Source: Diphasiastrum complanatum (Eukaryota; Streptophyta; Lycopodiopsida; Lycopodiales; Lycopodiaceae). From it: a DNA stretch of 64,000 nt. The stretch lies in the NCBI GenBank assembly GCA_029204225.1, contig CM055092.1, positions 61,644,779 to 61,708,778 on the forward strand, given 5' to 3'. Position 1 is the stretch's first letter. Each line of letters starts with the position of its first letter. Positions 3,682 to 39,300 of this stretch are shown here, piece after piece. A model generated the notes under the pieces. It was not told the origin of the DNA. It made no database searches and saw only the letters and a list, made by a program, of their open reading frames with translations. The position numbers and the translations under genes are program-made.

Positions 3682-4875
3682 GCTACGCCAATTTTTCAGT
3701 TTGCAGCATGTTTGGTTGATGGTTAGCTTGCATTAGGCATCTTGTCGTGGCATGAATAGTTTTAAATATGCATTTTAGGGTTAGTTTGGGATTGATTTTG
3801 CTTGATTTGAGTGGATTTGCTTGTTTGAAATCTAATCTGATTATTTCACAGGGAAAGCTATTTAGATCACCAATCTTAAGATCCATTTGGATCTGAGATA
3901 TCAGAGAAAATAACAAAAATCGGTCAAATTTGTCAAATTTGATCAAAAAGAGGCAAAAACCGTCATCAGAGCTCATAACTTTTTACCCTCTTTCAAGAAA
4001 CCTTCGTCGAGTTGCAGACACCTTTGGTTTTGTTTACAAAACCTTCAGTTTGAAGGGCGAAGATTAATTCCCAGCAGATATCTAGAAACATCAGAAAAAC
4101 CACCAAAAACCACCAAAAATTATCAAAACCCTAAAAAATACAAAAAAAGAACCTTCGCCCGATTCACTGTGCTTAGATGTGATTCAGATCTATCTACTGC
4201 CAGGTTGACGAAGAATAATACCAAAAATAGAAAGGGTCTCAGAGGATAAGTTGTCACATTGTCATATTTTTGTCAAAAAAATCACTTTTTTGCAAAATTA
4301 CCAATATTACTCTTGATCCTTCGCCAAAACCTTCGACGAGAAACATTCTATTTATAGAAAAATACTATTTTTGAGTTCAACAAAGATTCTTCTTGATCAG
4401 ATCACAAAAAATCTTGATTTTTACCCTCGCCAGATTACAAAAACTGTATTTTCTTGTGTCAGAAACCTTCGTCCGATTTTCCATAGTTTTATCTGTGTCA
4501 GATCTTCCATCTGAGGAGTCGGCGAAGGTTATTTCCCAAGAAATTGCCAGAAAAGTGTTCAGAGAGTTTTTTTTTTCCCCCAAAATAGCACTGTTGAACC
4601 TTCGCCGAGCCAACCTTCGGCAGTCCTATTTTTAGTTTCTGATTTTCCAGATCAAGTCTCTGTCAAAATTTGGATCAAATCTGATATATTCTGAATTGGA
4701 TTCTGAGAGATTTATCATTTTTGAGAAGTATCGATTGATCGAATTTCGGAAAGTTTTTTATTATATAGAATCAGATTCTTGAAAAGTGGAATAAAGCTAG
4801 CAGATCTAATCTGAGATAGTTTTTTGGAAAAATCTATATCCAATCTCATTATCAATTTGATCTAAATTTGTAAAG
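3682..4875 (+). other. Gypsy-1 untranslated leader with clustered CCTTCG/CGAAGG motifs
   Basis: No convincing coding sequence is present in these 1.2 kb. Between about 3990 and 4625 the motif AACCTTCGYCGA, or its complement, occurs about ten times in both orientations (for example near 4000, 4150, 4317, 4329, 4463, 4520, 4598, 4611). The same motif recurs at 10.4-10.7 kb in this element. Confidence 0.6.
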
Positions 4876-25008: not shown

Positions 25009-26573
25009 ATGACGTCGGCAAGGGAGTCAATATCACAGCTGCTGCAATTTGCTATGATGCCGATCGCCAAAGTGATGGTAATGTGCTCACTGGGGGTGGT
25101 GATGGCCACCCAACGCGTCAACATTCTCTCTGACAGCGTCCGTAAGGAGCTTAGCAAGGTATTCTCCTCTTCTTTCTTCCCCCGGAGTTTCGAGCTCGGG
25201 TCCAAACCGATATGTGACAATATGCTCAATATCTAAGACAGCATGACTTGGAGATCACGAGATCATGAACACTAACGTTTATGCTTGGTTTTCTGTTTCA
25301 AATTCTTTGCAGCTGCTTTTCTCTCTCCTTTTGCCGTGTCTGATCTTCTCACAATTGGGTTCAGCTGTGACACTGGGGAAGATAATCAGTTGGTAAGTTT
25401 GGTAACTGTTAATAAAGACATTGCCTATCAAGATTAACAATCTCTTGTCCAAAGCACCCGAGTGTACATCTCTGCTTAGTCTTTTCTTCATGCTCGGAGT
25501 GAACTGAAATGAAAAAGTTGCTGCTAGTATTTGCTTTGTCAGAAACAGCTGTCTGCTTTCGGCCAATTTCATGGTCATGATCTTACCTTAAATCATACTA
25601 CATATCCACCACTCTTTTTTCTAATTAAAATTGAGTGCAGGTGGTTCATTCCAGTAAATGTAGTCATTTCAGCAAGCCTGGGGTGCCTTTTGGGACTGCT
25701 GGTGGCTCTAATTGTCAGGCCTCCACGACAATTTTTCAAACTCACCATCGTCATGGTTGGAATTGGTAGCACGACCGTCTTTTTCCTCAGCAATTTTGGA
25801 TTGTCGCTTCGTAGCTATAGGGCAAATAGTCTCACATTACTACCCCATTCAGAAACAAATCTCCTTTCAATTTCTCGCATTGCTCTTTGCTGATCTGAAT
25901 GTTCAGTGGTGCAGGTAATATTGGCAACATTCCTTTGGTCTTGATTTCTGCTGTTTGTCGAGACAAGAATAACCCCTTTGGAGCTCCTCAACAATGTGAC
26001 ACCAACGGTGTTGCATACATCTCTTATGGACAGTGGGTATGAACTACTTAGCAGCAGATTTTCTGAAATATGTTCACTTGAACGGTTTTTACTATTATAA
26101 ATGGGTGGTTAAGTATCTATCATTTCGAAGTTTTCCCATTGATCTTCATTTTGTCGGCTTGAGAGGAGTTCTGTACCACTGTTATTTTTTATATCTTATC
26201 CGTGCTGTTTTTGGCAGGTGGGTGCTATTATTGCTTACACTTTCGTTTTTCAAATGCTTTCGCCACCCGCCGAAAAACCCAATGAATTAGACAACAACAG
26301 CGATTCGTTCCAGGTGAAGATACAGATAAACGAGACACCCCATGAATTAATTCCACTTCTTTCAAATGCACCTCGAAACCAAAACGGTGCATGTCCAGAG
26401 TACGGACAAGTGTTTTCTGCTGACTATTTTCTTCTGCAATTCCATTCAAACCTGCATCATTCCCCCTTTCCAATTCTGGAAATCACATCCATGCTTTGCA
26501 TTCTTCGTACTTCTCCTGTTCAATTTCCCATCACTGTGAACGAGGGAAGCGCATCACTGTGAACGAGGGAAAC

Positions 26574-26627
<54 letters not shown>

Positions 26628-28583
26628 TGAATGTCAACAGTGATACAGAAAACGCGTTTTATGCGTTTTGATTGGCCACGTAGCCCTAGGACCGGTCACA
26701 TTGCATTAAATGAGTTGATGCAACGTGCTGGAAATTTTTGGAAATGAGTTGATGCCACGTGCTGGAAATGAGTTGATGCGACTAGGTGGAAATTTTTGGA
26801 GGTCGCGAAAAGTTGCTGGAGGAAGCGTGGGTGTAAACGTTGCCATTGGAGCTGCGTGGGTGTAGACGTTGCCATTGTTGTCGCCATCGTTGTCATCTCC
26901 TTAGAGCTTGGAGCTGCGTGGAGGGAAACGTGGTGCTGCCAAGGAAACACGGAGCTGCCTTCGCTGCCAGGGAGACATTGATTTGCTGCCAAGGATACTC
27001 TTGATTTGTGTGTGTGCCAAATGTATATCTGTTTCTGACCACTCTGATCACAACTGTAAAAGCAAAAAGCTTTCTTCACAACGGATAGAGAGGAGTGAGG
27101 CCAGTAGGCATGTGTGTGAGCTGACGTGTGTGTGTGCGTGTGTGAACTGTGTGTATGTGTGTGTGTGAGTGATGGATAGGCTGTTACAGAGATAATCTAA
27201 GTTGTAAGTAAAACAACAGATTCACCTTTCTGATGTGTTTGGCAGATTGACAATGGTTCGAAAGCAGGCAAATGAGGGAGTTCTGGAGTGTGGAATCAAT
27301 GGACAGGCTAATGATGAGTTTAGAATTCCTGCAGGTAGTGAGAAATTGAAGGTAAAAAAGTGTGCTGACTTCAAGCTTGTGAAGCGGTATGAGAAACCCG
27401 AAAAAGTGCATGAACTAAGTGTAACAGTGGGGATTGCTGGTTGTGATGTTGATCCAAAGCTTATAGGTGTGATTGAGAAATTCTTGAGGAATGAATGCAT
27501 TGCTGGTTTATGTGGGCTTGAGAGAGGAGGTATGCTAATGAATCTGCATTTTCAGATGATTTGTAAGTGCTTTGCATCTTCTGTACTAAAGGTCAATCAC
27601 TTGTTGAAGCAATATTTGGGTTGGACAAAAGAAGATCCACCTGGAAACTTGGTGTTGTGTAGGTACCTGAGGCAAAAGGGTATTCATACCTGGCATGGAA
27701 TGATTGGATACTGTTTGAAGGATTTTGGAAAGGGTCATTTTCAGTGCGTTATGTATGGTGTAGATCAGAGTGATATAGATAAAGGTCGTGAAGAGTACAT
27801 TAAGTATGGTGCTTCTGAGATTAAAAGTCGTGTATCTTTAACCCCTGTTAATCTGTTTGAGCGAGCATTTATATTTTCAGTTTATCATATGAAAAGTAGA
27901 GTTAGTTCAACCATTCCTCAGGTTTTATTGGCTATGCTAAGGACATGCAAGTATTATCTAGCAGCCACATGGGTGACACCATTCCAGGGAAAAGGAATGG
28001 ACATGGTGAGAGCTGCTACAGTCTGGAAGGCTATGAAGGCACCAAGCCTTGTGACCATGGATGATGTGATGGCAATCTTTTTTCCAAAAGATGCAGATTT
28101 TCGATATTTTAAAAGTTGTGCTCCGAGGTTTGATAACTTGTATGGTTTGAAGATGCAGGACGAGGCTAGTGGGCTCAAATCCTTTGAGCCTATTCTACAG
28201 AATGATGGTGGAAATGATGGACTTGGTGAAAATGATGTGCAATATGGATATGTTAGCTTGAGTGAGTGCGAATCTGAGGCTTTGTGAGCCATGCGAGCAC
28301 TATGCTGTTTTGAAAGATTGTCAGTACTCTTGTTTTGGAAGACTCTAAGTAGAATTTTGTTGTTTTGTAAACAACTTTCATGAGATATGAATGCGAAACT
28401 ATGTACTTTTGTTTTGGAATAAAAAGGAAGATGCAAAATTACGTTTTGTTGAGATTGTATACAATGTTTTGTTTAGCTTGTATGAAATGCAAAATTTGGG
28501 TTAGATGGATTAGGGTTAGGGTTAGGGTTAGAGTTAGGGTTAATTTTTTAGGGTTTCTATACCAAGAAATAGCAATAATGTGA

Positions 28584-28645
<62 letters not shown>

Positions 28646-31600
28646 AACGTAGAAGAAGAAGTATATTATTAACCGCAATGGTATGTACATATAGTTTTTA
28701 GAAAGAGTGAGAGAGAGAACGCGTCTCTCTGTGAGGGGCACCTGAAAAGGTGCGTCCTTTCAAAACATCTAAGTAACAATAATGAAGTTTTATTTAAACT
28801 AATAAATAAGTTGGGCTGAAAGGTTCCCGTTCCGGTGTCCTTTTTTGACACCCCCCCCTTAAATAACCAAGAATTTGTCTGTATTGACTTGCTTTATAAT
28901 GTTTTATCCATTGTGATGCTTTTGTTGGATTTTTACACTGTTGTCCTGGAGATAAGGGTGTCATATAATAGGACGTATGAGACACTTGAAATTTTTGAAG
29001 TATGCGTTTGGCAAACTTGGATTGAGTGAGATGGAGTGACCGTGACGGTCGATGACAGAGAACTTGCATTCCAAGAAGATATGATTCTTCCCCCCCATCC
29101 GTCATTGAGAACGTTTGAGTAGGAACTTGTTTGGCACTGTGTAACATGGATTTGGAGGATGCCAAAAGAAGAATGTCATCAACATAGAGAGCAAAGATAA
29201 CAAATTGATCATCCTGTTGTTTAAGATAGACTAAAACATCATTCACCAGACGATGATATCCAACAACTTTTGTAAACTCAATAAAGCGAATGTTCCATTG
29301 GCGAGGTGATTGTTTAAGCCCATAAATTGCACGTAAGAGGAGACAAACATAGGTTGGTTGCTCAGTAGAGACAAAATACGGGGGCTGTTCCATGTAAATG
29401 AGTTCGTCAAGAAGACCATTCAGAAATGTTTCTACATCCATTTGGTCCATTTCTAGATCCAGTTCAACTCCCAGAGTGAGCAGTAAACGAAAGGTAACAA
29501 TGCGTAAAGTAGGTGAGAAGGTCTCATTATAATCAATACCTGCTTCTACACAAACCCACGGGCAACTAAGCATGCTTTGTAACATGATAGAGATCCATCA
29601 GGTTTGTATTTGCGGCGCAAAACCCACTTACAAGAGATAGCTTTGTGACCAGGTGGAAGAGGAACCAATTTCCATGTGTTATTAGCATACATGGATTTTA
29701 TTTCTGATTCCATAGCAATTCGTCAAGAATAAGCTTCGTGAGAAGCGATCGGCTTCGTCTTACACATAGAATTGCAAGCAATCACCAAGATAGTGCACCA
29801 ATAAATAGTAGAACCCAAGAGAACCATGTATAAACATGAAATGAGATAGAGAAGAGAGAAGATATCTCTCTCCACGAGTTACATTCTTTTATAGCAGGTC
29901 CAAACCCTATTTGGCCACTTGGCTTTCTCACCAAAATGCTAGAAGAAATCATAAGAAGAGGAGCTTTCTGCAGCCATGTTACCAGAACCAAGGATGTCAC
30001 TTAGAGATCGAAATTTGCGACTTGTTGAGTTGGAAGGAGCTAAAATGTCTGAAAGTGTTGTTGTGGAGCCCTGTTGTTGTGTAGTTTTAGACCGAGTTTG
30101 GACACCTTGAGTAGTGTCTAGTAATGCCGCATCATTGCTCGGATGCATAAAGAATAAATTAGAACGTGGCAATCGAATAGAAGTGCGATGACCACGAACA
30201 GGAATGACCCGGCTTGCTGAATCATTTGGAATATGGGAGTGAGGTGTATCAGATGGTGTTGGAACATGATGTTCTTCATTTGGAGGTGCAGGTGGTGGAT
30301 CAAGTGGATGTGGATCATCTTGAATGACTGGTGAATTAAATGAGGATTTAGTCCACTCTTCAATTTCAGAACTAGGCTGTTCAGCAGGAGAAACAATCAC
30401 TTGAGGTTGAAGAAGTTTGACAGGAGGTTGTAGTTCAGAATAAATACTAGATGGAGGAGTTGATGATGCACCATTAATCAAAACATCTTCATCAAAGAAG
30501 ACATCACGAGCAAAATAGAATTGTTGTAGTCATTTTTCGATAGAGACAAGCCTCACACAATGAGATTGGTGTTAGCTTGCATTGAATACCCTTCGCCATT
30601 TTGTAGTTTTGTATTGTTCTGATCACTTGAACATGAGGATGCCCAAGGCGATAATGCCAGCGTAGCGGAGCTAGGATGGCTAGACCTTTTTCGCATCTGG
30701 TCTTCCTGACGGATTTGGGTGACTAGTTCTGAGACTGTAAGCTCAGAATTTGCAGAATGTGTGGTGATAAAGGAACGCCAAGAGTCAGGTAAGGCAGAGA
30801 GGAGTATGGTGACTTGAATCTCCCGAGGCAGCACAAGTCCTGACAACGTTAAGTTATCTAGTGCAGTCAACAATTCGTCAAGAAATGCTTCAACATTATT
30901 AAAGTCTTTCAGCATGATTCCATTAAGTTGCTTATTTAGCAAGACTCGAGATACTACGTTAGTCTGCTGTTATTGAGATTTAAGGAAGTCCCACATAGCT
31001 TTTGCAGTCCTTTGTTCGCGGACTAGTTGCAGTTGTCGATCTCCAAGATGAAAAATTATCTCTGTTCGGGCTACAAGATCTTTTCGTCGCCATTCAACTA
31101 GTGCTTCAGAAGGAGAGGCAGGTTGTGCTTCTGTCCCGTTCACCACTCCCAGGTTTCCGTCTTTTTCAAGCAGCATGCTTATTCGAAGACTCCAAGGAAG
31201 ATAATTTGCTCCAGTTAGCTTTTCGATGTGGTAAGACTTTGTCATAGAGGCTGTGCCTGGAGAAGTAGCCATGGTTTTCTAATGGCTGTCCGGATCCACC
31301 AAATAGAGAACAAGGCTATTCAGGCAGATGTGCGGTGTCTCAGACGAAAGAAATAGTTTGCTGCAGCATTATGAAGGCATTAAGGAATTTGCAGGCCTGG
31401 CTTCAATTGCATTCGGGTGCAAACACGCAGCTTATAGGTGCGCTTAACCAACTCAGCATAATGTTCTGCATGATAGCAGAAGTTCTAATAGTGTCGGCAA
31501 AGTGATGTGGGCAGTTTGGATGGCCATTGAGTAAGAACAACAGAAAAAAATGAAAACGAACGGAAACAACACATCCTCCATGTGTTGATCAGGCACATGG

Positions 31601-34171
31601 GATAGTATTGAAGTCAAAAACAAATGAAATCCTTTATAGCATTGTAGATGATAGTAGTCTGTTCCGCAGGCAACGGTTCTGCAGGCAACTCGATGGACAG
31701 TTAGGCAACAAGGCTGCGTCGATGTGGGACTCTATTGGTTGATCAGAAGGAAGCGTTCAGCATGTTCACATTCTGCAACAGCGAGAGTAGGCCGTGGAGG
31801 ATCGCGAGGCTTTTTACCATGTGAACGAGGGAAGCGCAGAGAGAGGGAGAGACTTGAAGTAACGTAGAAGAATAAGTATATTATTAACCGCAATGTAGTT
31901 TTTAGAAAGAGTGAGAGAGAGAACGCGTCTCTCTGTGAGGGGAACTTGAAAAGGTGCGTCCTTTCAAAACATCTCCGTAACAATAATGAAGTTTTTATTT
32001 AAACTAATAAATAAGTTGGGCTGAAACGTTCACGTTCCGGTGTCCGTTTCTGACAATCACAAACCCAACAAACATGTAGAGCAAACACATGGTCATTTTA
32101 TGTGTTTATAAGATACGCCTTCCTGAAAATATTCTTTAAACAAAGCACATCTCCATTAAAAGAAACTCTCCTTTTTTAATGCTATGTGTGTTTGCCTTGC
32201 TAATTTTACTGCCTTACTTGTTCAGAAGGCTATCCATCCGATCTGAACCACAAGTAGAGCAGTAACTCTACTGTAACCTGAGGTTTTATGACTCCAGCTA
32301 TAAAAGTGACATATGATTTTCATAGTCTATGAAAGAGCTCTTTTCTCAGCTCCACCTAGAAAATAGCTCGACATCTTTTTCTCTTGAAGTGCTTTGAACC
32401 CATTCTGGGAGCCAAGATTACCTTGTAGCTTCCTGTCCTGATCTCCTACTTCGATTGCTCAAACCTCACTATTTGGATTCTTAAATCTACCTGCACTTTG
32501 AGAAAAAGGTACTGAAGTAACAAAAAAATCTGTATAACGTACGCATCTTGGCCTTTGGCAAACATAGCTGCTGAAAACATGGCTCTTAGTCTTTATTTTT
32601 GCACTCTTTGATAGCAAGTAAGACTAGCAACTGATTCTGACGACTATTTCGTGATTAAAAATAGCAGGTAAAGGTAGTGAAATCATGGCTTGAAAAGTCG
32701 AGACTCCAAACTATATTGCAGCCTCCAGTTGCCGCTTCTGTAAGCATTTCAGAAACCATATTGCTTGATTGTTTTGACAGCTAAGTCCATGTATGATCTA
32801 CCAAACTGCTGCTCGGGCAAAGCACATTTCTTTTGGTGTTTGTTATGCCACTTGTAAGTTCGTTTGTTAAGCATTCTAATGACAATTCCTTGTTTTTAGC
32901 CTGAGGTGCTGTACTTGCATAATATATGATCCATGGAAATGTTTCCAGTGTTTAAGTATCTAGTGATCAGTCACGGGCTTAAAAGTGAAATTTATAGAGC
33001 GTCACTTCAGTAGGCTGACGACTTTGGTGTGATTGCCAGATTCTATCTTTGGTAGTGGGAGCTATTCCTCCTCTGAAAAAGCTATTTTTCAAAGACAAAG
33101 CCATCTTCTTCTTTGTATCTGACGCCTTGAACATAATGGGGTATATCCTTTCCTGAACTAAAATCTTTACTGCATATTTAAATACTGCGTGATATCTCAT
33201 TACAAGCCTGAATGATGGCAATTCATATCAAGGCTTTGACAAGCTATCAAGTAAAAGGTTCAAGGTCCGTCTGACACCGCCAAGTAGTACTTCAGTGAAA
33301 CATTTTCCTTTGTCTAGCTGCCTTTTGCTCACTTGGAGCATTTTATTTGGCATTTTTCAGAGGAGCTATGATACCGTGCATTATGCTGATACTTGGGGGA
33401 AGCCTAGTCAAGGGTATTGAACTTCTAATCATCGATTTGTAATTCTGCTTGGAGCTTTCTTGTCCAGATTTTGTGCTCTGACCAGCATTTCTTAAAAAGT
33501 CATAAAAAAAATGGTCTTATATTTTATTATATTCGCATGGCTTATGTGTTTCAGGCCCAGGAGCATCTGAATTGGGAACAAGAACAACAGTTGCCATCAC
33601 GCTTGCCCGGCTATTGTTGATACCCCCAATAGGCATTGGGGTTGTCATAATGGCAGAGAAGTTGGGACTCCTGCCTCCAGATGACAACATGTTTCGCTTT
33701 GTTGTTCTCTTGCAGCATTCCATGCCAAGTTCTATACTTGCAGGTGAAATATCCGTAGAAACAGAACGTTGTTGCACCTTTTAAGAAGTTTCAGTTATGG
33801 AGACGATTTTCTGGTTACCATAACTACAATGTTTACATAATCCGAACTACAAATACAAAGCTTACAAGAAATATCGATCTCTTTCTCTACACTGTAGTCT
33901 ACATAGCAAAGCGCTTTGCAATCTAAATATCACATGTTGATTCTTATCCTTCTGTTCTTTGAAGTAAAAAATCCTTCGACTAACTGCCAGTCTATACGAC
34001 TGATTTGTAAGTTTGTAACTGACGTCAGTAATTTTTAATCTACCAGGAGCAGTCGCTAGTCTTCGAGGCCACTGTGAGAAAGAAGCATCAGCAATTCTGT
34101 TTTGGCAGCACATATTTGCAATTCCATCAATTGCAGGTTGGCTTGTGCTCTACTTCAAATTCCTTTTCTAA
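25009..34171 (+). CDS. PILS: PIN-LIKES (PILS) auxin transport facilitator, 10 exons
   Basis: Exons: 25009-25158, 25313-25392, 25641-25765, 25915-26036, 26218-26409, 32668-32739, 33040-33140, 33361-33413, 33555-33743 and 34047-34171. All have GT/AG borders, join in one frame and encode about 402 residues, the usual PILS length. Family hallmarks in order: LGVVMATQRVNILS, then KIIS-WWFIPVNV across an exon junction, GNIGNIPLVLISAVC, NPFGAPQQC, ILQPPVAAS, VVGAIPPLKKLFF, GGAMIPCIMLILGG, ARLLLIPPIGIGVVI and a final LFWQHIF segment ending with TAA. N- and C-terminal hydrophobic helix bundles flank a short hydrophilic loop in exon 5. PILS proteins sit in the ER membrane and control intracellular auxin. 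An in-frame ATG four codons upstream (24,997) is an alternative start. Intron 5 (26,410-32,667) is expanded to ~6.26 kb by nested transposons, yet no exon is damaged. Confidence 0.93.
26576..26624. repeat. (GA)n microsatellite, left side of the HUH insert
   Basis: About 49 bp of uninterrupted GA. In the right LTR the equivalent tract is only about 20 bp. Confidence 0.95.
26708..26799 (+). repeat. Iteron-like tandem repeats upstream of the HUH gene
   Basis: AAATGAGTTGATGC occurs three times (from 26,708, 26,742 and 26,766), each followed by ACGTGCTGG or a variant; copies 1 and 3 also share GGAAATTTTTGG. A second pair, GCGTGGGTGTARACGTTGCC, begins at 26,825 and 26,854. Direct repeats beside a Rep gene recall Rep-binding iterons; that role is inference. 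Confidence 0.7.
27253..28287 (+). CDS. Rep-like HUH endonuclease (putative Replitron transposase)
   Basis: An intact 344-residue frame starts at ATG 27,253, preceded by TTTGGCAG that could be a 3' splice site in the leader; an AATAAA lies at 28,418. Motifs in order match single-strand Rep nucleases: a motif I-like strand LSVTVG (Thr58), a motif II-like NLHFQM (residues 97-102, read as H-hydrophobic-Q, the HUQ variant seen in circovirus/nanovirus-type Reps), and motif III YCLKD with the probable nicking Tyr153 and Lys156. The ~180 residues after motif III show no helicase Walker motifs. Such enzymes nick and join single-stranded DNA at transposon ends. The ORF is uninterrupted, unlike every large TE gene around it, suggesting recent insertion. 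Assignment rests on motifs only. Confidence 0.72.
   Translation: MVRKQANEGVLECGINGQANDEFRIPAGSEKLKVKKCADFKLVKRYEKPEKVHELSVTVGIAGCDVDPKLIGVIEKFLRNECIAGLCGLERGGMLMNLHFQMICKCFASSVLKVNHLLKQYLGWTKEDPPGNLVLCRYLRQKGIHTWHGMIGYCLKDFGKGHFQCVMYGVDQSDIDKGREEYIKYGASEIKSRVSLTPVNLFERAFIFSVYHMKSRVSSTIPQVLLAMLRTCKYYLAATWVTPFQGKGMDMVRAATVWKAMKAPSLVTMDDVMAIFFPKDADFRYFKSCAPRFDNLYGLKMQDEASGLKSFEPILQNDGGNDGLGENDVQYGYVSLSECESEAL
28510..28539 (+). repeat. Short TTAGGG hexamer array
   Basis: Five consecutive units, four TTAGGG and one TTAGAG, are followed by TTTTTTAGGGTTT. The hexamer form differs from the usual plant TTTAGGG telomere repeat. It lies 47 bp before the right GA tract, near the presumed 3' end of the HUH element. 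Confidence 0.9.
28587..28642. repeat. (GA)n microsatellite, right side of the HUH insert
   Basis: About 56 bp of GA repeats, continuing into the Copia LTR sequence AGTAACGTAG. Confidence 0.95.
28863..29730 (-). pseudogene. Intronic Copia reverse transcriptase
   Basis: From about 29,720 the minus strand reads NTWKLVPLPPGHKAISCKWV, then a frame change near 29,585, then DYNETFSPTLRIVTFRLLL, MDQMDVETFLNG, IYGLKQSPRQWNIRF and FALYVDDILLLAS with the catalytic YVDD intact. The frame continues through LTQSKFAKRIL but ends abruptly in the PPT/LTR (LGYLRGG), so RNase H is deleted. Confidence 0.88.
29939..30540 (-). pseudogene. Intronic Copia post-integrase linker
   Basis: A 180-codon minus-strand frame is Pro/Ser/Thr-rich (DPPPAPPNEEHHVP, TRSKTTQQQGS) and resembles the variable linker between Copia integrase and RT, preceded by FYFARDVFFDED-like sequence typical of the integrase end. 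The integrase core itself is missing. 29,731-29,938 is noncoding in this copy. Confidence 0.6.
30553..31272 (-). pseudogene. Intronic Copia gag
   Basis: It starts at ATG 31,272 (MATSPGTASMTKSYHIEKL), with NYLPWSLRISMLL typical of the Copia gag N-terminus. A stop near 30,970 is followed by the UBN2 domain (LLNKQLNGIMLKDFNNVEAF, TILLSALPDSW, TVSELVTQIRQEDQMRK). No zinc knuckle or protease is recognisable before the jump to the post-integrase linker, so an internal deletion joined gag to the end of integrase. Confidence 0.82.
31273..31819 (-). other. Intronic Copia 5' leader
   Basis: Noncoding sequence between the gag start and the PBS/LTR at 31,820. No other feature is seen. Confidence 0.5.
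31820..32055 (-). repeat. Right (5') LTR of intronic Copia, intact
   Basis: 236 bp, plus strand TGTGAACGAGGGAAGCGC to TTTCTGACA, followed by the TSD ATCAC. It has only a short GA tract and no insert, so it is the empty-site comparator for the HUH insertion in the other LTR. Confidence 0.92.

Positions 34172-36218: not shown

Positions 36219-36303
<85 letters not shown>
36081..36303. repeat. Compound microsatellite cluster
   Basis: (GAGT)n, (GA)n, (GT)n, a second (GT)n and (CT)n of about 80 bp (36,221-36,303) occur in series. GTGTGTGGTAATCCTWATTC is repeated, so the cluster itself has been duplicated. ORFs here are low-complexity artefacts. Confidence 0.95.
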
Positions 36304-36305
<2 letters not shown>

Positions 36306-39300
36306 ACACCTCACTTTATCACTATTTCTCTCCCATACCAGAAAACCCTAAAAAAACCTAGAAAATGAAAAATTCTCACGCTCTCTTGCCTCTCCTGCCA
36401 TCCCGTTTCTCTCTCCTACATCCAGATTTTATACCTTATTCTCTCTCTAGAAAGTTCTCTTTCCAGAAGTTTCTAGAAAGAGACCGTTCTCTCACTTCAC
36501 CTCTTTTTCAACTCATTTTCAAATGCCCTTCAAAAATATTTTAGGGCAAACGTGGACCAATGAAAACCTCCGAAATGACTTTTCTCCACAACAGCCTACA
36601 TGCATTCTCTCTCAATTTAATACTTCCACTTGATTTCCAAACACTTAAAATATTTTTCAAATGATGTGGCTATTGACTTATGAGCTCTTTGAAACAAAAA
36701 AATGAGCACGTTCTTAGTGGTAATGGCCTTTCTCAAATTTGACTCTTGATGTCGTACGAAGTTATCTTGACCTTTTAAGCTTCTAATTTCAAAGTGTTCA
36801 GGTTTTTAACCATATTCACTTTTTAGTATCTTCTCTATTTTGTAGGTTTGATCCTTACCCAATACTTTATTTTTCTCGTGATTTCCCTCTTCCTTGTCCA
36901 TGCTTTGGTTGTGGTGGCCTTCCCTCCCTTCCCATTACCTCCGATGCACCATTTTCTCTTACCTAGGTTTTTATTCTACATGTTTCTCTTCGAACCTTGT
37001 TTATGTCATTCTACTTGATAATATGGCAAAGATGGGAGTCACTTGATAATATGCTTTGTTCTCTCTTTTTAAAATGCTCTTGGCTTGCATGGTTGCCCTC
37101 TATTTATGCTTTTGATTTGTACATCTCTCCTTTCTTTGTGCTCAATGGTTGTGTCTTGGTGGTGTCATTTTTATTTTTGTGTGCACTTTCCTCCCCTTGC
37201 CAACGACATGATTTTTTCTATTGATATAGCACTTACCATGGTTGGCTCTTGCTAGCATTGGTGGCATTGGACAAGATACATGTGTCTTTCAGTTAGTTGT
37301 TTCTTTAGCCTTGTCTAAGGCTTATTTGTTTCTCTTCACCCTTGATAGGCTTGTCACTTTGGCTCACTTTTGAGTGCTTTTGCTATTTATTTGGGATTCA
37401 TGTCAATATACTATTTCTTTGTGTATTTGATTTTATGGTATTGAGAAAAATATATATATTTTTGTCTTTTTATGTTTATTAATTTGTTGTCTTTTTCTAA
37501 TGATTTAATTCATCAAAAAAGTGTTGAACGTAGTGAAAAAAACACTATATTATTATTTTTGTTCATTCTTGTAAAGAGATTACAAAAAGTAATGATAGTA
37601 TTTAAGATATTACTTTTAAGTAATAATAGATCATAGTATTTAAAATACTACTCTTGCAAATGATACTCTTGAAAAGTGTTGTTTTTAAAGATAGTCAAAT
37701 CATGAAGTCTTATATTTTTTGAATAAAATTTTAAATAAGTTTACCTAGGAGTAAAATTAGTGCAATCATGATAATTGGAATCTTGTAAGAAGCTATTTCT
37801 TAGGTAGAATATCGTAGGAGTTCCTCTAGATCAAAGATAGTGATGCATGGGTTAGTTACATGAAATTACCCAAATGAAATAGATCGTGCAGGTAAACATA
37901 GATAGCTTAAATATAGATTAAATAGAACTAGATTAGATCAAATAGTCTAGATATAATTCTATTAGCTAAATATGTTTTTAGACTAGATAGGATCAATATA
38001 GCCAGAGAAACGATAAAGACTTGTCCATATTTGCAATTGAAGTTGTTAATTTTTCATGATCCACAAAACACAAGGGCTAACTTGTGTGGTTGAATGAGTG
38101 TTAAAATCCACAATGGCTAACTTATTCGACATCATGCTAGGAATAACATCAACTTCCTAAGTTAGTGCGGTTTCCATAAACTTAACATGTCATATATAGT
38201 TGTGAATATGCATTATTCATTTCTTACGTGAATACCCTCCATTTCAAAGGAAAAGAGCTTTATTATCTTGAAGTTGGCCTTAGGTCTTTAGATCTTTGGA
38301 TCTTCAATAATGTGCACCTCTTTTACCTTTGTCTTGTTTAGGTGCTTTAGAAGTTCCTAGAAGATCATATATCACCACTAGCTTTTTAAAAAACTAATTT
38401 TTGGACAAAATGACAATTATCTTAACACTTGTTGGGATATATCCTTATTACTTTTTCCCTTTGTTCTTCTTGAACTCACCTAAGAACTCTTTTACCTTTG
38501 TCTTGTTTAGGTGCTTTAGAAGTTCCTAGAAGATCATATATCACCACTAGCTTTTTAGAAAACTAATTTTTGGACAGAATGACAATTATCTTAACACTTC
38601 TTGGGATATATCCTTATTACTTTTTCCCTTTGTTCTTCTTGAACTCACCTAAGAACTTGCCTCCTTTAGTTCCGAAATAAAAATTCTTACGACCCTTTAG
38701 GGCCTTGCCAATTATAGACTTCCATATTCTTGGGTTTGGCAATATCCACCTTGTACTAAATGTGACATGTAAGACCCAAAATTAATTTCTTTTGTTCTTC
38801 CCACTTTGTATATCAAATATTACGTTCAAAAAGGCTTTCCAAGTGGTTCACATATTGTAAAATAATTGTTATTACCTTTTTCCCAAAGAGATCCCATCAT
38901 ATGAATACATCCCTTTTACAATCTTTCCACATAACATGATTCTTCATTAGTCTTTTGAAGCAGTACTTGTTAACTAATGCATTAAGGGTACCTTAAAGGT
39001 ACCACTAACTAGCAAATCTAGTCAAGTTAGATCTTACAATTTTCAAAGTCGTCCTTAAAACGAACTTGCTAAAAATTTCAATATCATTTTAGATTGATCA
39101 AGTTTAAGTTATATTTTGCCTATGGATGATACACAATTAGTTGTAAAAGTTCTACTTCTCCCAACTTGATATACATTGAAGTAGATGCTTATATACACTA
39201 TGATGAAATTCTTGGAAAAGCTCCAATAAAATTTGGATCCCAATATCATTTTTAGAAGTAAATTAATTAATTTGATATGAAGATATGCAAGATAAGACAC

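Follow-up and report, generated by a model that had tools for sequence, protein, structure and literature searches.

Target choice by HUH enzymes in eukaryotes is, to our knowledge, poorly understood. Replitrons, for which the founding paper is reportedly that of Craig (2023, PNAS e2301424120), are defined by a single catalytic tyrosine (Y1) and the lack of a helicase. According to a review, they measure 900 bp to 4 kb, count lycophytes among their stated hosts, and carry short direct terminal repeats (5-11 bp) with target duplications of 2-8 bp, whereas Helitrons follow an insertion rule that places them between A and T (PMC10741241). A separate precedent for transposons at microsatellites is given by the SaTars of guayule and rice, MULE-derived elements that are described as mostly bearing terminal inverted repeats, and for which circle formation and recombination into microsatellites were proposed (PMC5907723). 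The window analysed here, a stretch of 64,000 nucleotides in all, is part of contig C1 of the 1.74 Gb genome of Diphasiastrum complanatum. It holds a Replitron nested in a Copia element, and a short relative of the Replitron further downstream. The features are as follows.

~26.55-32.05 kb: Copia element, with minus-strand ORFs
26558..28850, minus strand: left LTR of the Copia element, split by the insert
26576..26623, plus strand: (GA)n tract of 48 bp at the 5' end of the Replitron
26630..28587, plus strand: Replitron copy of 1,958 bp with termini AATGTCAACAG... and ...AATAATGTGAGTTG, delimited by comparison with other copies
26649..26669, plus strand: possible hairpin near the 5' end (AAAACGC...GCGTTTT); two stems, this one included, lie within the first 120 bases
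27253..28287, plus strand: Replitron transposase ORF of 344 aa, uninterrupted from ATG to stop
28587..28642, plus strand: (GA)n tract of 56 bp adjoining the Replitron 3' terminus
31820..32055, minus strand: right LTR of the Copia element, intact, the putative empty site (GCAGAGAGAGGGAGAGACTTGAAG)
36304..36608, minus strand: non-autonomous relative of ~305 bp, 5' end GAGAGAATGCATGTAGGCTG, 3' end ...AGTGATAAAGTGAGGTGTCG

The coding capacity of the insert was examined at the protein level. The initial annotation had described a single uninterrupted gene of 344 codons with Rep-type motifs and no helicase, and had proposed a search against Replitron models; the ORF proved open and was the only long one in the insert, and the search supported the rest. 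Residues 57-182 matched PF21859 (Replitron_HUH; E 4.3e-15; score 56.6 bits, cut-off 28.5; profile positions 2-127 of 128), and residues 223-277 matched PF21860 (Replitron_C; E 3.4e-10; score 40.6 bits, cut-off 27; profile positions 23-77 of 77), both above the curated thresholds. The Pfam scan of the 344-residue protein returned neither a helicase nor any other domain. Because two Replitron domains were found above their cut-offs and no helicase was detected, the insert is, by its domain content, a Replitron. A Helitron was ruled out, since the helicase domain was absent and the Replitron models were the only Pfam matches. A further Pfam scan of six proteins found Replitron_HUH in five (P0001, L004, L049, L054, and L058), the fragment P0002 giving no match. 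AlphaFold models reached pLDDT values of 31.7 (one sequence) and 33.1 (three sequences), too low to interpret, so the fold assignment rests on the Pfam models. A sequence search of solved structures gave only weak matches, to MHC chains and a single further chain, which were taken as chance. The protein database returned no match to a single-sequence query, and an alignment query retrieved two Diphasiastrum complanatum proteins, one of them O6H91_02G115400. In the genome at least 121 protein-level matches were found, with 117 of 471 candidates scored; among the matches listed, two covered residues 1-344 without a stop, namely the window copy and C1:10253425-10254456 (97% identical).

The catalytic motifs were then compared among relatives. 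In the window protein, motif II reads N97-L-H99-F-Q101, and a single tyrosine, the putative catalytic Tyr153, lies in GYCLKD, so that with no helicase the protein fits the Y1 definition. NLHFQ was found in nine independent copies of the window subfamily (11 rows, two pairs being taken as twin contigs), and DLHFQ in the pair L007/L008. Divergent relatives mostly carry HLHFQ, with the variants HLHMQ (L058), HLHTQ (L060), HLHVQ (L027), and HLHFR (L024) and the exceptions RLHFQ (L050), HLYFQ (L052), and ALHMQ (L056). Of the three positions of motif II, that of the first histidine accordingly varies most, and the NLHFQ of the window subfamily departs from a canonical HUH motif. Either H97 was changed to N in the window subfamily, or the metal pair could be H99/Q101, an arrangement of the HUQ type; metal pairs of this type are known from the Reps of some circular-DNA viruses. 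Tyr153 was kept in 22 of 24 rows (Cys in L027, a stop in L037), and outside those rows it was replaced by Cys in L058 and by Arg in L054 and L055. We infer a catalytic role for Y153. The two Arg-bearing loci, L054 (C15:4249400-4250500) and L055 (C2:61264600-61265700, whose protein is P0001), hold nearly identical open ORFs reading GRCLKD, which may be inactive or may serve another function.

The insertion site was characterised from the host element. Directly outside the Copia LTRs, before the left and after the right, lie 5-bp target duplications (ATCAC), and pairwise alignment of the LTRs, with the insert and gaps excluded, gave 14 differences at 234 aligned sites (6.0%). The target duplication falls within a 23-bp tandem duplication (26530-26575) at the outer margin of the left LTR. 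The initial annotation had placed the split of the left LTR inside its GA run, and GA tracts do bound the insert on both sides. It had taken the right LTR as the empty site; the coordinates of that LTR held, and its role as empty site is putative, being a single site where the homologous place carries a 15-bp imperfect GA-rich run, compared with the ~104 bp of GA that flank the insert. With one such site and so short a run, a preference for GA targets and the making or growth of GA with the element are not separated, and the tracts may owe their length to growth at or after insertion. The ends of the element had been put at 26,625 and 28,586. Comparison of copies, among which L002, L003, and L004 are 93-96% identical to the window copy over nearly its full length, set the conserved 5' end, AATGTC, at 26630 and, on the other side, the final conserved bases, GTGAGTTG, at 28587, within a few bases of those positions, the exact cut points being beyond fixing inside GA repeats. 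No direct or inverted repeat pairing both termini was found among the listed 20 of 21 families; GA on both sides would hide direct terminal repeats and target duplications. The first 120 bases folded better than shuffled sequences (z about -2.6 on either strand), and the last 131 bases no better. A TTAGGG-like repeat run (28507-28541) lies near the 3' end, with similar GGGTTAGGG runs in other copies.

We further investigated if element ends elsewhere in the genome adjoin simple repeats. A set of 34 independent loci was assembled after twin contigs and re-fetched copies were removed; all were found with the window element as query and are therefore not a blind sample. Scanning for the 3' motif (ATAGCAATAATGTGAGTTG) by mismatch counts yielded 29 rows, from which eight were dropped: six internal look-alikes (ATCTGAGTTG followed by TAAGT), a duplicate register in L024, and L035, taken as chance at four mismatches (shuffled loci yield 0-4 hits, mean 1). 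With a run defined as a dinucleotide repeat of at least 8 bp within 30 bases of the end, 19 of the remaining 21 3' ends bore one, 17 as (GA)n and two as (GT)n (19 of 22 if L035 is kept), and a CT or CA run stood beside none of the 21. A GA or GT run also lay within the 30 bases preceding 9 of 11 5' ends. At random positions such runs occurred in 5.7% of cases within these loci and in 2.1% within the window, and a chance association with GA repeats was ruled out by comparing the 3'-end counts with these values. The initial annotation had proposed collecting copies to see whether their ends always abut GA repeats; the ends lay at such repeats far above chance, with GT as an occasional substitute.

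The exceptions were inspected individually. One 3' end without a run, in L027 (position 2926), is followed by the 5' end of the next element, and the other, in L043, by an imperfect GA-rich stretch. The two 5' ends without a run belong to L005, which has a long GA tract on its 3' side only, and L032. The 5' run of L003 lies 12 bases away from the end, and in L004, which is not among the 11, GA replaces the first bases of the element. At L021 and L028 GT stands in place of GA, and L002 has GT on the left and GA on the right, which shows the repeat to be no constant component of the element. Both the type and the length of the repeat differ from copy to copy, and also between the twin contigs L007/L008.

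Short relatives that lack the gene share this type of terminus and likewise sit on GA/GT tracts. The 3' end of the relative in the window directly adjoins an 82-bp GA tract (36222-36303), and similar DNA occurs in L003, L018, L019, L026, L027, and L036. Among loci picked for matches to the element ends or the short relative, full and short elements, or the ends of such elements, stand in tandem and point the same way in L003, L018, L019, L027, and L036, and neighbours in opposite orientation were seen in L032 and L036. On the minus strand of L018, at ~3970-4150, a flanking block (GTGGGCAAAATAAGC...) recurs after two GA tracts beside a Replitron end, which suggests a local duplication. Among 13 decayed relatives (L061-L073) scanned on the 3' side, an end was located in L063 only, a member of the transposase family at 48% identity, where ...ATAGCCATAAAGTGAG is followed by 122 bp of GA. 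GA runs follow a perhaps end-like sequence in L065, L066, and L070, and the other decayed relatives have no visible end. A more distant clade (L049-L053 and L057; 48-52% identical protein, several open genes) was examined as well. The outcome that the initial annotation had named as a refutation, copies of the ORF in unrelated contexts, was seen, as copies lying away from GA, in this clade only: in L049, L050, L074, L076, and L078 the ~0.6-0.9 kb that follow the gene held no GA run, and the true ends were not located there. The microsatellite habit is thus not shown for Replitrons in general. An 8-bp TG run lies downstream of the gene in L074, and CT runs lie upstream of the gene in L049, L075, and L077. 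L049 (C12:43682900-43685000) also has an inverted repeat downstream of its open Replitron ORF and a second match on the opposite strand (C12:43685192-43685659).

The age of the lineage was estimated from substitutions private to single copies. Seven close copies, spread over several chromosomes, carry 0.6-1.5% each (0.92% in the window copy), and five of them keep both termini (the window copy, L002, L003, L005, and L019), with L004 keeping the 3' one. The nesting, with 0.92% private substitutions versus 6.0% between the LTRs, is in line with the Copia element having inserted first and the Replitron later. Variants common to at least two copies occupy 31 of 1032 coding sites, 40 of 259 sites in the 3' non-coding part, and 15 of 534 in the 5' part, where distant copies do not align; their frequency in the coding part is thus below that of the 3' non-coding part, though not below that of the 5' part. 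Shared nonsynonymous and synonymous variants stood at 18:13 versus a neutral ratio of 2.67 (p 0.07), singletons (79:32) fitted neutrality, and dN/dS was 0.18-0.63 for deeper pairs and 0.62-1.82 for the closest ones. Taken together, these counts suggested selection at the protein level but did not prove it.

Based on these results, we consider it likely that the insert is a Replitron, potentially an autonomous one, whose lineage in this lycophyte enters or adjoins purine-first dinucleotide repeats, mostly (GA)n and in fewer cases (GT)n, the strand of the repeat corresponding to the top strand of the element. The two Replitron domains, the common termini, the strand-specific GA/GT flanks, the arrays joined by tracts, and the nesting in an older Copia element all support this reading. 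Its agent would be the Rep-type (HUH-superfamily) endonuclease with its C-terminal domain, the only recognisable product of the insert. By means of Tyr153, the Rep would nick the element at its junction with GA. One strand would then be copied out and joined into a GA/GT tract on the matching strand, since terminus and target have this short repeat in common. Such a route would leave GA on both sides, hide the target duplication, and allow new copies to enter beside old ones. A wider proposal, which we put forward tentatively, is that of a lycophyte Replitron clade in which the Rep reads the purine-strand repeat as both terminus and target, so that a nuclease of the rolling-circle type would target microsatellites in a strand-specific way, the youngest subfamily having a changed metal motif (NLHFQ, either HUQ-like or NUH) and a protein under selection.

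The same flanks would arise if the GA tracts came with the element, which would enter a short GA-rich or arbitrary target and acquire its long repeats by slippage while the single strand is copied or by later growth, with no preference for existing microsatellites. The 15 bp of imperfect GA in the right LTR versus ~104 bp in the split one, the one-sided tracts of L005 and L032, and the unequal tracts of the twins L007/L008 agree with this account, but the GT swaps and mixed sides of L002, L021, and L028, as well as several element types meeting on one tract, fit pre-existing repeats better; we regard it as possible, though doubtful. It is also rather improbable that the Rep merely makes a circle and has no part in target choice, the circular form, with GA at its junction, recombining by homology into GA/GT microsatellites. 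This model predicts the fixed repeat strand seen at the 3' ends, and the SaTars offer an analogue with microsatellite flanks, uninterrupted arrays, and a frequent lack of target duplications (PMC5907723), but simple GA homology does not explain GT on the left and GA on the right of L002. That the insert is a dead fossil or a domesticated gene instead of a mobile element is very improbable. The number of listed matches that span the whole protein without stops, two, would suit such a view, but the seven close copies, with few private substitutions each, lie on several chromosomes and mostly keep their termini.

The proposed insertion of a Replitron lineage at microsatellites would matter in two respects. 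A lineage that combines young copies and two intact genes with clear ends and a simple-repeat target would be tractable, since the target is a plain oligonucleotide. It would also offer a way, dependent on a Rep, for microsatellites to seed transposon arrays, an outcome already known for MULE-derived elements (PMC5907723). The presence of Replitrons in lycophytes is itself already published (PMC10741241). Our literature search found no report linking Replitrons with microsatellites in the texts it covered; the founding paper lay outside it, and the result is no proof of novelty.

Compared with the systems described, the window element resembles the Replitrons of the review in its Pfam HUH and C-terminal domains, its lack of a helicase, its size of ~2 kb, and its lycophyte host, but differs from them in ending at GA/GT microsatellites with terminal repeats and target duplications unrecognisable, and in the NLHFQ form of motif II. 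With Helitrons it shares the status of a eukaryotic transposon with a Rep-type HUH nuclease, but it has no helicase domain, and the A-T insertion rule, as the review words it, was not seen. Like SaTar/Micron elements, the Replitron lineage has microsatellite flanks and arrays joined by microsatellites; unlike them, it has a Rep enzyme, no inverted repeat pairing its termini, and a fixed strand with respect to the repeat.
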